Shown here: positions 44,236 through 48,383 of the stretch, piece by piece
How the letters are laid out: each line of letters starts with the position of its first letter
Numbering within the stretch: the first letter of the stretch is position 1
Assembly (NCBI GenBank): GCA_002701385.1
Contig: NZVD01000097.1
Span: 2,604-53,099 of the forward strand
DNA length: 50,496 bases
DNA from: Rhodopirellula sp.
GTDB taxonomy: Bacteria > Planctomycetota > Planctomycetia > Pirellulales > Pirellulaceae
Direction of reading: 5' to 3'
Program-made: the position numbers and the translations under genes
Notes under the pieces: generated by a model
Databases searched by the model: none
What the model was told of the DNA's origin: nothing
Seen by the model: only the letters and a program-made list of their open reading frames with translations

Positions 44236-44678
44236 GTTGTAAATCTGTCCTATTGGGGTTTTGAACCGTAGACAAGGCTCGTCTTAATGTGCTTGTTGTT
44301 ATGAAATAAGTCAGCGTTTTGGGGGATTTCCTCCGCCAAGCAACTCACTGTAAATAGCTGGAATGTTCGTTATATTGATGGCTTAACCGCTCATTTCCCT
44401 GAAAAACAACCTTTGCTTCAAAATAGTTAAACTGGAGCGTTGAGCAAGTCCGTTTAACTGGAGAATAAAGGGCAATTAGGTCAAATATTCGGCCAAAACA
44501 TAAGTAGGTAAATCTACCAGCGAGGTTCTGAATGTGTCAATTAACAAAACCCCCAATAGTAGGGGTTATTGGCATAAAACACATAAACTGTGGTTGTTCC
44601 GTGCAAAAATTACCATTGTTAAGCGGCATTGGCCATTTATTTTGCCAAAATAGTACCACTTAATAGGAGGATTCATTG
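44236..44678. other. Divergent intergenic region
   Basis: This 443-base AT-rich region must hold the ppdK (minus) and CPBP (plus) promoters. The one clear structure is the small stem AACCCC (44548-44553) with GGGGTT (44562-44567). An AGGAGG binding site for the CPBP gene is at 44665-44670. No Rex-type TTGTGAA palindrome was seen although ppdK would be a likely redox-linked target. Confidence 0.4.
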
Positions 44679-45524
44679 GTGGATTCAAAATCCAGCCATT
44701 CAGACCAATTTGCAGCTGAAAACAGCGACGAATTTAGCGCCCACCGCGCCCCCGATCAGCCGCTGGATCTGACGCTAGACGCGACAGGCCGCAATAAGCC
44801 AGACGATCTCAGCGGTTTGCCGGGGACTGGGAATTGGCAGAGTGTCCTGTTGAAGTTCGTGGTGGTGGAATTTGCCTTGGTTCCTGTCGCGTTGCTACTG
44901 ATCTACTGGTGTGACTTACCCAATGCTACGAATCTCTCCGGGCAATTGATTGGCGAAGATTCCTGGTTATCCGCGGTTGTCTTTGGCTGCATGGCAACAA
45001 TTCCTGTATTGGCTCTGTTTGTCACTGCTGAATTGTGTGAGCCTCATTTCAAGTCACTTCAAGACCTTCGCCAATTAGTGCTCACCAAATTAATGCCATG
45101 GCTTCGTGGGATCCCAACTTGGGGATTGTTACTCATTTCAATTGGGGCAGGGATCGGGGAGGAGTGGCTCTTTCGGGGATTTTTTCAACAGTGGATGAAG
45201 TCACTCGTTGGGGCTGAAGCTGGCATTTGGATTCCTATTCTGATCACGTCGCTGTTGTTTGGACTTTGTCATGCCGTCTCGATGACATATTTCGTGGCAA
45301 CCTTTCTCATTGGGATTTACTTTGGCTTTCTGACCGAATGGACAGGTTCGCTGCTACCGGCGGCAACAAGTCATGCTCTTTACGACTTCATCGCGTTGGT
45401 TTACTTAACTCAGTTAGACCGACGTACTTGTCAACCGACTGGTCAACTAATTTGTCAGGAAGCGGAGCAGGGTTCAAGTGATCCCATAGAAACAACGGGT
45501 AATCAGAGTGACGCCGGGGTGTGA
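44679..45524 (+). CDS. CPBP-family intramembrane glutamic protease
   Basis: The protein of about 281 residues has a polar N-terminus (about 50 residues) then several transmembrane helices. The CPBP (CAAX protease and bacteriocin-processing, Abi) motifs are present: EEWLFRG (about residues 161-167, catalytic glutamates), FGLCHAVS (His about 198) and SHALYDF (about 231-237). Family members cut membrane or prenylated peptides; bacterial ones include bacteriocin-immunity proteins. GTG 44679 is chosen because AGGAGG ends eight bases upstream; TTG 44676 is also possible. The substrate is unknown. Confidence 0.88.
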   Translation: MDSKSSHSDQFAAENSDEFSAHRAPDQPLDLTLDATGRNKPDDLSGLPGTGNWQSVLLKFVVVEFALVPVALLLIYWCDLPNATNLSGQLIGEDSWLSAVVFGCMATIPVLALFVTAELCEPHFKSLQDLRQLVLTKLMPWLRGIPTWGLLLISIGAGIGEEWLFRGFFQQWMKSLVGAEAGIWIPILITSLLFGLCHAVSMTYFVATFLIGIYFGFLTEWTGSLLPAATSHALYDFIALVYLTQLDRRTCQPTGQLICQEAEQGSSDPIETTGNQSDAGV

Positions 45525-45586: not shown

Positions 45587-45622
45587 AAAACCGAGTGTTC
45601 CTCTGATGGACCACTCGGTTTT
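45587..45622. terminator. Bidirectional terminator between convergent genes
   Basis: AAAACCGAGTG (45587-45597) pairs with CACTCGGTTTT (45612-45622), an 11-bp stem with a 14-base loop and T-runs on both sides, between the CPBP gene and the YTV-repeat gene, which converge here. Confidence 0.85.
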
Positions 45623-45664: not shown

Positions 45665-47215
45665 TTAGAAACAGCAATTGGTTAACAGGCTGCGTCGTAA
45701 TAATCCGCATGGATTAGGCGTACAGACTGTCACAGGATATTGTTCGCAAACAACTCGGGGTACACAGCGGCTAACCGTATACGGCACTTGTTTGGGTACA
45801 CGCTTACAAACCTGAATAGTTTTGGTGTATTTCACGGGCTTTCGAACGGTATAACATTCCTGCCGAGTTTTTGTTTCTTTGACGATTTTGCATTCCTGAT
45901 AAGGAACTTGTTTGGTTTTAGTTTCCTGAACCAATCGGCATTGTCGATAGTTGACAACTCGCTGTTTGGTTTCAGCCACGATCTGCAGTGCTTTGTAGTT
46001 ACAGGTTCGGACCTTTTGTTCACGAACCAGGCGACAGGTTCGGTAGTTAATAGTGCGTTGTTTGTTTTCTTTCACAAACTTACAAACCGTGTAAGGGACC
46101 TGACGTGATTTAGTTTCGGTAACCATCCGGCAAGTACGATAGTTCATAACGCGTTGTTTAGCTTCTGGAACCACTTTACAAACTCGATATGTACATACCT
46201 TTTGCTTTGGTTCGTTAACCCAGCGGCAGCTAGTGTAAGGCACCTGTTTTTGGACGGTTTCCCGAACGTATTTCACACAGGGAATTTCCTTAGTACAGAT
46301 CTCTGGAACCCAGACTCGCTTGCAGATTTGACGAGGCGGGCATTGGTATTCAACCACTTCGCAGCTGCCGGGAACCCAAATTCGGCGACAGCAGGTTGGA
46401 TCCCAGGTCCAGCAACCGGGCGTTCGAACCACGCGACGACGGATCGGCCCTGGGCATTCTACAATTTCAGTTTCCCAATGACCTGATTTGATTTGAACCG
46501 TCTTGGTGTAGTGAACCGGTTTTCGGATCACCTGAGACACTGTTCTTGTTTTAGTTTCATAGATGGGTTTTCGAACGGTGTAATTAATTACTTTTTGTTT
46601 CGTTTCCCAGACAGTCTTGGGCACGGTGTAATTAATCGTACGCTGTTTTGTTTCCCACACTGGTCGCGTGACATTCCATGTGTGTGTTCGCGTCTTGGTT
46701 TCGTAGACGGGTTTGGTCACGGTATAGTTGACCACCCGTTGCTTTGTTTCTACGACCGGCTTAATCACACTGTAGGGAATCTCTTTGGTTTTAGTGACCC
46801 ATACAGGACGTCGCTGAGTGTAGTTAATCACTCGCTGCTTGGTTTCCCAAACTGGACGCGTTGTAGTGTAATTAACGTCTCGATACTTTGTTTCATAAAC
46901 ACGTCGAGCGACTTCGTAGTTTACGTTTCGGACCTTCGTTTCATTAACGTACTTAACACACTCGATGTCTTTGGTATCAACCACGGTATCGTAAACGGTC
47001 TTATAACAGGTGTACTGTTGTTGATCGAATACGACACGGCGTCTGGTACGCATGATCGTATGAGTTTGGACCTGAGATTCACAAATAGATTCAGGTTCCG
47101 CAATCCCGCAATTACGGTAGTTGGCCAGGCCGAGATATCCAGCCGAAGCTGAATCCAGCATGAACAGGCAGATAGCAACTGCCAGGCTGGTTACGCTCCA
47201 ACGTGATTTTAACAT
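45665..47215 (-). CDS. YTV-repeat envelope protein, 16-residue repeats in two classes
   Basis: The 516-residue protein has a signal peptide (1-25, ending SASAG) and starts at ATG 47215, with AAGGAG six bases upstream. It matches the YTV family described from planctomycete cell-wall fractions. Two sets of exact 16-residue repeats, consensus x-ETK-R--NY--, follow each other: residues 90-233 (nine units, without cysteine) and about 314-457 (nine units, most beginning with Cys). A Cys/Pro/Trp-rich centre (254-313) separates them, and the C-terminus has many Cys and ends NCCF. The cysteines suggest disulfide cross-links in the wall. High Arg/Lys content and repeats favour a structural role. Lack of membrane anchor is noted. 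Confidence 0.92.
   Translation of the reverse strand: MLKSRWSVTSLAVAICLFMLDSASAGYLGLANYRNCGIAEPESICESQVQTHTIMRTRRRVVFDQQQYTCYKTVYDTVVDTKDIECVKYVNETKVRNVNYEVARRVYETKYRDVNYTTTRPVWETKQRVINYTQRRPVWVTKTKEIPYSVIKPVVETKQRVVNYTVTKPVYETKTRTHTWNVTRPVWETKQRTINYTVPKTVWETKQKVINYTVRKPIYETKTRTVSQVIRKPVHYTKTVQIKSGHWETEIVECPGPIRRRVVRTPGCWTWDPTCCRRIWVPGSCEVVEYQCPPRQICKRVWVPEICTKEIPCVKYVRETVQKQVPYTSCRWVNEPKQKVCTYRVCKVVPEAKQRVMNYRTCRMVTETKSRQVPYTVCKFVKENKQRTINYRTCRLVREQKVRTCNYKALQIVAETKQRVVNYRQCRLVQETKTKQVPYQECKIVKETKTRQECYTVRKPVKYTKTIQVCKRVPKQVPYTVSRCVPRVVCEQYPVTVCTPNPCGLLRRSLLTNCCF
45845..46276 (-). repeat. C-terminal repeat set of the YTV protein
   Basis: Nine units of 48 bases encode nine 16-residue repeats with one cysteine at the same unit position in most (residues 330, 346, 362, 378, 394, 426, 442); the unit at 410 has Leu instead. 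No insertion or deletion shifts the period. Confidence 0.9.
46517..46948 (-). repeat. N-terminal repeat set of the YTV protein
   Basis: Nine units of 48 bases encode nine 16-residue repeats (residues 90-233) with the pattern VxETKxRxxNYTxxRP and no cysteine. The period is exact. Confidence 0.9.
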
Positions 47216-47711: not shown

Positions 47712-48383
47712 ATGTCCGAGCACAAGTCCACACTATACAACGATCAGGGAGAACTCGTCGTACCGAAAGCGGTCGTCGGGCGTCTGAGTTTGTATTTGCG
47801 GGAAGTCCAGCACCTGATTCGTGATGGCAAAGAGACCACCAATAGCACGGAATTGGGGGGATTGTTGGGAGTGACCGATGCTCAGGTTCGAAAAGACCTG
47901 GCTTATTTTGGCCAGTTTGGCCATCCCGGAGTTGGTTACCGCTGTCAGGAACTTGTGGCAGCCATCAAGCACATCATGGGTACTGACAGTATTTGGAATG
48001 TTGCCTTGATTGGGATTGGGAATCTTGGTCGAGCCTTATTGAGATATAAGGGATTTCATGAACAGGGCTTTCGGATCGTAGCAGCCTTTGATGTGGATGC
48101 TCAGTTGATCGGTGGTAAGGTCGAAGGGGTGGATGTCTTTCATGTGAACGACTTGGATCTGGTAGTGCAAGATCAATGCATTCGGCTCGTCGCGATTTCA
48201 GTGCCGTCGCATGCAGCTCAGTCTGTTGTCGACCAAGTCGTGGAGGTTGGCGTTGAGGGAATCTTGAATTTTGCTCCTGTCACGATTAGTGTTCCTTCCC
48301 AAGTACGAGTGATCGGCGTGGATTTGGCGATGGAGTTGGAGCAGCTTGCCTTCACCGTTGTGAATCGCGATTCGAGTTCATAA
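47712..48383 (+). CDS. rex: Redox-sensing transcriptional repressor Rex
   Basis: Rex senses the NADH/NAD+ ratio and represses fermentation and respiration genes when NAD+ is high. The 223-residue protein has an N-terminal winged helix (VVGRLSLYLREVQHL; STELGGLLGVTDAQVRKDLAYFG, landmarks), the Rossmann NAD(H)-binding core with VALIGIGNLGRALL (GxGxxG, about 95-107), and the C-terminal swapped helix with MELEQLAFTVVNR. Length is normal for the family. It stands alone, with a terminator after it. Candidate targets in the window are not proven. Confidence 0.95.
   Translation: MSEHKSTLYNDQGELVVPKAVVGRLSLYLREVQHLIRDGKETTNSTELGGLLGVTDAQVRKDLAYFGQFGHPGVGYRCQELVAAIKHIMGTDSIWNVALIGIGNLGRALLRYKGFHEQGFRIVAAFDVDAQLIGGKVEGVDVFHVNDLDLVVQDQCIRLVAISVPSHAAQSVVDQVVEVGVEGILNFAPVTISVPSQVRVIGVDLAMELEQLAFTVVNRDSSS

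Follow-up and report, generated by a model that had tools for sequence, protein, structure and literature searches.

A YTV repeat protein of Rhodopirellula sp. predicted to form one giant, mirror-paired antiparallel beta-hairpin

A YTV (PF07639) protein was found to be encoded in a 50,496-nucleotide window from a Rhodopirellula sp. (the window being the whole stretch of DNA analyzed), and its mature chain very probably forms one giant antiparallel beta-hairpin, in a host in which two protein families of peptidoglycan synthesis were looked for without a match. The resulting ribbons would be stapled to each other in the cell wall. The YTV family itself was already known; what appears to be new is the pairing of two mirror-image arms in one giant hairpin, and the sequence evidence for it is strong. 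It has long been asked how planctomycetes maintain their shape when they have hardly any peptidoglycan or none, and the hairpin, if true, would offer a concrete model of how a wall can be made of protein instead of peptidoglycan.

Gene and Protein Layout

The YTV gene (45665–47215, minus strand) was shown to be a real ORF with an ATG start encoding 516 amino acids. PF07639 matched the protein in 12 stretches (E 1.1e-68; 227.5 bits compared to a cut-off of 21), and a Fibrinogen_BP Pfam match fell below its own cut-off. It was the sole YTV protein found in the host genome (4.9 Mb, 99% complete). A putative signal peptide, judged by eye from the sequence, covers residues 1–25 (47141–47215; cleavage at SASA/G26) and would leave approximately 491 mature residues. 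All parts of the protein lie on the minus strand. Residues 26–86 (46958–47140) correspond to the predicted N-terminal part of strand 1 and end in the cap TKDIEC. The unit parse and class profiles place array 1 at residues 87–230 (46526–46957), with nine Cys-free 16-residue units of the class [x]KPV[WY]ETK, and array 2 at residues 314–457 (45845–46276), with nine 16-residue units of which all but two (starting with V314 and L410) are led by Cys. Between the arrays lies the hub (residues 231–313; 46277–46525), and array 2 is followed by the C-terminal cap (RKPVKYTKT) and a Cys-rich tail (residues 458–516; 45665–45844 including the stop codon), called by the cap parse and by coupling with the N-terminal segment. 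A terminator-like inverted repeat with 93% complementary arms was detected 3′ of the gene (45587–45622).

The original prediction had described residues 90–233 as nine Cys-free units and residues 314–457 as nine mostly Cys-led units, both free of indels and joined by a hub rich in Cys, Pro, and Trp. This layout was confirmed: both blocks are exactly 9 × 16 residues, Cys stands first in seven of the nine units of the second block, and the linker 234–313 contains nine Cys and five of the 12 Trp of the protein. A common register for both blocks requires, though, that the first is read as 87–230. The repeats had also been called exact, which holds for their length, constant at 16, and not for their sequence, as identity at lag 16 reached 52% and 41% in the first and second block, respectively. 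Lag-16 self-identity was 21.9 SD over that of shuffled sequences, and the half-period lags 8, 24, and 40 gave weaker signals. The precursor contains 31 Cys in total, and since the N-terminal segment (Cys36, Cys45, Cys70, and Cys86) and the C-terminal tail carry some of them, they are not confined to array 2 and the hub.

Relatives and Unit Classes

YTV matches were present in all 60 genomes of the first sample, the host's own among them, and a gap-free 90-column hub alignment matched 231 of 248 genomes from the class. The matches fetched as loci gave 137 distinct hub-bearing ORFs, which were parsed. The relatives were found to have a common plan, consisting of an N-terminal segment, array 1, hub, array 2, and tail. 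Ninety-seven proteins had a hub of at least 95 bits (86 mostly from the same order and 11 from family f22), and the hub aligned without gaps in 96 of these; thinning to hubs less than 80% identical left 67 representatives. The named close relatives (90–99% identical) came from six uncultured Pirellulaceae/Planctomycetaceae genomes. Besides, a second YTV group (L074–L084) with less Cys, approximately 30% identity, shorter arrays, and a related hub was present in many relatives and was not found in the host genome. The scan gave no relatives in viral contigs.

In the phylum, PF07639 was found in 12 of 147 genomes, 10 of them from the same class or closer and two from outside the class (f38). Outside the class, weak matches located in long ORFs (G297:C53:24906-25022, E 4.7e-5, and G340:C12:12495-12578, E 7.8e-4) were both over the cut-off and possibly represent distant relatives of the repeat. 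A passage in PMC10632474 states that the family is restricted to the class Planctomycetia; from our matches it is nearly, perhaps not strictly, limited to it.

When profiles were built with the protein concerned left out, 963 of 971 16-residue units were sorted to the correct array; without the Cys position the figure was 962. The two-class order that had been read from this one protein is thus real and general, but its interpretation as successive zones of a fiber did not hold up, the classes being better explained as the two strands of one hairpin. Nor does Cys define the classes, since in addition to the profile result many relatives are Cys-led in both arrays. Among 58 of the 67 representatives (the remaining nine had too few inner units), Cys occupied position 1 in at least half of the units of both arrays in 28, of the second array only in 28, of neither in two, and of the first only in none. 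Judged from these counts, a Cys-free array 1 is a lineage state, one of two common states, and not a rule of the family.

Residue Coupling between the Arrays

Within 54 proteins, the residue types of each array-1 unit were compared to those of the mirror unit in array 2, with shuffled unit order as control. The mirror alignment gave z-values of 32, 21, and 13.6 when zero, one, and two end units were dropped, compared to 33, 6.9, and 4.2 for the forward alignment. As the forward signal collapses without the end units, it comes mainly from these special units. Shifting the mirror alignment by one or two units gave z-values of at most 5.7 with two end units dropped; the raised value at shift +1 (5.4) is explained by a register that crosses unit borders. 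By residue offset, mean z was 6.36 at −5, 4.6 at −3, and 4.0 at −7, and at most 2.3 at even offsets. This narrow comb of odd offsets, which runs on across unit borders, is the pattern of same-face side chains on two antiparallel strands. In the 516-aa protein, the main register places residue i opposite residue 549−i. The beta structure proposed originally is supported by this alternating antidiagonal signature.

A second set of 25 representatives (60–95 bits), which had no protein in common with the first and was blindly aligned according to hub distance, peaked at the same offset, and still did so with 23 proteins after the two from the same order had been removed. When 34 proteins of the first set were analyzed by direct columns, the peak was again at −5. 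Within the hub, analyzed in 62 representatives, the column-pair sum was highest at 87 (equal to 549), and 89 and 85 came next. Row shuffles (200, 200, and 300) never reached the main peaks of the 34-protein, 25-protein, and hub analyses. The terminal segments also coupled antiparallel in 21 representatives (of 45 candidates, 33 were usable and yielded these), with the best offset at 0 and the next at 2, where 2 was expected; it is this coupling with the C-terminal tail in relatives, at most two residues from the main register, that assigns the N-terminal segment to strand 1.

Several further offsets also rose above the highest value of the row shuffles (in the 34-protein set 13, −51, 59, and 27; in the 25-protein set −69), at less than half of the height of the main peak, and may be caused by unit homogenization or coiling of the ribbon. 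Charge pairing within the single protein did not single out 549 (six opposite, two same), and favored sums of 551 (22 opposite, one same), 541 (20 and five), and 557 (20 and one), which is compatible with diagonal salt bridges.

Two Faces, Cysteines and the Wall

The consensus sequences of the two arrays were shown to be alike at even positions, least so at position 12, and different at odd positions (Jensen-Shannon 0.138 compared to 0.457; rank 65 of 12,870 partitions). The shared face reads Lys2/Val4/Glu6/Arg8/Lys10/Tyr14/Val16 on both strands. On the odd face, Trp/Tyr on strand 1 would stand opposite a ladder of Cys on strand 2: in 340 of 412 direct cross-strand pairs, the Cys at array-2 position 1 was opposite Trp/Tyr at array-1 position 5. 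Direct Cys:Cys pairs across the hairpin were depleted, with 11 seen compared to 41 expected from pooled column frequencies (kinship ignored). Proteins with Cys at array-1 position 1 tended to have less of it at positions 5 and 7 of array 2 (r −0.56 and −0.50; 54 proteins, kinship ignored), as if the Cys site were kept in space yet moved between the strands. The depletion of Cys:Cys pairs indicates that the cysteines probably staple different hairpins. Located approximately 16 residues apart and facing aromatics, the array cysteines would be poorly able to bond within an extended ribbon, and disulfides between ribbons would therefore be their likeliest use.

A role in the wall, as originally suggested, is supported by published reports of YTV proteins of other species in wall preparations (PMC8567305, PMC5287468). 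They are called the major constituents of Gemmata obscuriglobus walls isolated by boiling in 10% SDS in a passage of PMC5287468. For Tuwongella immobilis, the two proteins that scored highest in the wall preparation are given in PMC8567305 as Cys-rich YTV proteins recovered in the SDS-soluble fraction. In addition, a YTV protein is named in PMC10632474 among the essential genes of Planctopirus limnophila. Within the host's family f1, the penicillin-binding transpeptidase PF00905 was found in none of 37 genomes, some of which are 69–89% complete; among the 60 genomes of the first sample, eight had it, and each of these belongs to another family of the order. A search for MurG gave no match in the host genome.

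The cysteines may instead be free thiols, metal sites, or links within the chain, a reading that is possible but on the whole doubtful. In its favor, VKOR, the single disulfide-enzyme family tried, was not found, and the SDS-soluble recovery in T. immobilis (PMC8567305) is not expected of a fully cross-linked wall. The depletion of direct cross-strand pairs and the 16-residue distance between successive array cysteines on an extended strand argue against it, as does the description of planctomycete walls as a disulfide-bonded protein sacculus, cited in PMC2754498.

The divergent upstream neighbor of the YTV gene is rex (47712–48383, plus strand), which encodes a redox-sensing repressor and often lies next to YTV genes. 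Among 65 distinct relatives with a hub of at least 95 bits and at least 1200 upstream bases, a divergent rex was present in 35, placed otherwise in one, and not seen in 29; with at least 1800 upstream bases it was present in 17 of 31. This neighborhood suggests redox-linked control of a Cys-rich wall protein. A Rex-operator-like pattern was not above chance. Convergent with the YTV gene is a gene for a CPBP-type intramembrane protease (44676–45524, plus strand), and similar genes were found in 27 fetched loci (same-place duplicates counted); NCBIfam matches fell below the cut-off.

Extended Ribbon or Coil

With the same strand pairing, the ribbon could be coiled into a compact two-start beta-helix having one turn per 16-residue unit. 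The 16-residue period with its frequent Pro (position 3 in array 1 and position 5 in array 2) could mark the corners of such a helix, and the extra coupling at offset 13 exceeded the row shuffles in one set. However, the offsets one unit away (11, 13, −19, and −21) were near background in the comparison within proteins (0.51, 0.37, 0.61, and 0.58 compared to 6.36 at −5), and 14-residue units alternate freely with 16-residue units in relatives, so that we consider coiling of this kind unlikely.

Hub and Predicted Turn

The register extrapolated from the arrays lands on a turn near Asp272-Pro273-Thr274-Cys275. The predicted hairpin tip comprises residues 272–277 (DPTCCR; 46385–46402, minus strand), as the register is centered at 274/275 and the AlphaFold2 model of the hub has a break between strands at 273–276. 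Within the hub, the register pairs Trp269 with Trp280, Trp247 with Trp302, Pro266-Gly267 with Pro282-Gly283, and Pro255 with Pro294. Conservation in the hub was most symmetric about sum 87 among 65 centers tried (r 0.45, p 0.0015), and hub coupling reached columns 40 with 45 and 47, which are only five to seven residues apart.

Fold prediction, which had been proposed as a check of the repeat structure, gave a partial answer. For the full-length protein with five near-identical relatives, AlphaFold2 reached a pLDDT of 30, and the long strands in this model were disregarded. For the hub segment alone (six near-identical sequences), the best model had a pLDDT of 60 and the other four 30–51; its strands (38–43 and 48–53, 2–20 and 67–89) lie almost symmetrically about a hairpin center near 549, a statement on secondary structure and not on contacts. 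The best hit of a sequence search in PDB had an E-value of 0.62, and that of a Foldseek search of the hub model against PDB 1.4.

These results also bear on whether array 1 of one molecule pairs with array 2 of another in a staggered or swapped fiber. Coupling alone cannot separate contacts within a molecule from contacts between molecules. Such an arrangement is improbable, though, because the register runs on into the hub as far as column 40, coupled to 45 and 47, for which one chain turning back on itself is the simplest explanation, and the strands of the AlphaFold2 hub model are symmetric about the same center.

Mirror Order of Unit Lengths and Equal Arms

Units of 14 residues occur in part of the relatives, and their positions were shown to coincide between the two arrays when read outward from the hub. 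Among 22 proteins in which both arrays consist solely of 14- and 16-residue units (L054, L060, and L106 were excluded for other lengths), the mirror order of unit lengths agreed better than the forward order in 13, was tied in nine with palindromic, short, or uninformative patterns, and was worse in none; mean agreement was 0.95 for mirror and 0.75 for forward order. The mirror match was exact over the shared length in 16 of the 22, for example 18/18 in L123 and L052, 17/17 in L108, and 15/15 in L045. Permutation within single proteins gave p ≤ 0.0004 in L045, L052, L058, and L123 and p > 0.1 in L028, L056, L121, and L134. Mirror order counts in favor of a hairpin because duplication cannot produce it. 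The two-residue deletion in 14-residue units started at position 11–12 in 68 of 101 and at 8 in 26 in array 1, and at 7–10 in 68 of 99 and at 12 in 23 in array 2; as its placement is ambiguous, it was not used as evidence for the register.

The number of units per arm was compared after calling caps by a likelihood ratio of cap versus unit. As this misplaced some caps, the counts were restricted to 36 proteins with clear caps, leaving 86 without a clear cap by that rule uncounted. Both arms had equal unit counts in 28 of the 36 (mean 10.3 and maximum 19 in shuffles; r 0.957), and the remaining eight had 25/21, 25/19, 15/13, 8/9, 9/10, 19/13, 21/18, and 11/13 units. When the common 9/9 case was left out, 11 of 19 were equal compared to 2.5 expected.

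That the arrays are two independent consecutive beta-fiber zones, one free and one disulfide-linked and not pairing with each other, would agree with the two real unit classes and with the restriction of Cys to array 2 within the arrays of the 516-aa protein. It would leave the mirror-placed 14-residue units, the equal arms, and the fixed antiparallel coupling unexplained, and is very improbable. Although all proteins went through a single parser and many of the genomes are in many contigs, an artifact arising from the parsing, from common descent, or from the assembly of repeats can hardly account for the mirror pattern, as the arrays were parsed separately, residue coupling is an independent type of data, proteins with better mirror order span families f1, f6, f7, f8, f12, f16, and f17, and the pattern was also found in single-contig genomes (L052, L058, and L061).

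Proposed Structure and Comparison with Known Systems

In the hairpin proposed here, array 1 would form one strand and array 2 the other, each unit facing its mirror unit. The hub would provide the last stretch of the ladder and the turn, and the N- and C-terminal segments would pair at the open end. After secretion, the chain may zip into one long ribbon of approximately 240 residues per arm, corresponding to approximately 80 nm if fully extended (textbook rise). The array cysteines, mostly unusable within the ribbon, could then serve in stacking with other ribbons, and disulfides at intervals of approximately 16 residues would staple the stacked ribbons into a tough wall layer; Cys in array 1, as in some relatives, would add more linkage sites. 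The fixed register i+j=549 leads to concrete tests, namely which residues touch, where the turn lies, which cysteines could bond solely between molecules, and why the number of repeats should change jointly in both arms.

A wider reading, which we regard as evenly balanced between right and wrong, is that YTV proteins represent a tandem-repeat fold of a new class. In such a protein "stem-loop," two long arrays with mirrored unit lengths would be zipped in a single register, in arms that can reach a few hundred residues, and turned by a hub of near-invariant length. Ribbons stapled through cysteines on one face would then form a load-bearing sacculus that replaces peptidoglycan across much of the class, with the placement of Cys setting the density of links.

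In the literature searched, as far as its accessible text goes, we found no structural model of YTV proteins and, Mahajan et al. (2020) aside, no description of mirror-paired arms or of a turn in the hub. The contact-based modeling in PMC8078820 (PLoS Comput Biol, 2021) lists YTV PF07639 in one row of its repeat-family table (0.59, no template shown); the main text of that paper names YTV once and contains neither "hairpin" nor "antiparallel." The 516-aa protein resembles the described family in sequence, repeats, Cys content, and a distribution centered on the class; the Pfam model of PF07639, however, describes a repeat of 43 positions compared to the 16-residue units found here.

We know of no other protein family with mirror symmetry between two tandem arrays, and our literature searches gave no case. 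Silkmoth chorion proteins also combine short tandem repeats and antiparallel beta-structure in a coat cross-linked by Cys; they differ from the YTV model in having many short strands instead of two mirror-matched long arms. Beta-solenoid repeat proteins are likewise built of tandem units of similar length, but in YTV proteins, unlike in these, the coupling runs antiparallel between two distant arrays.
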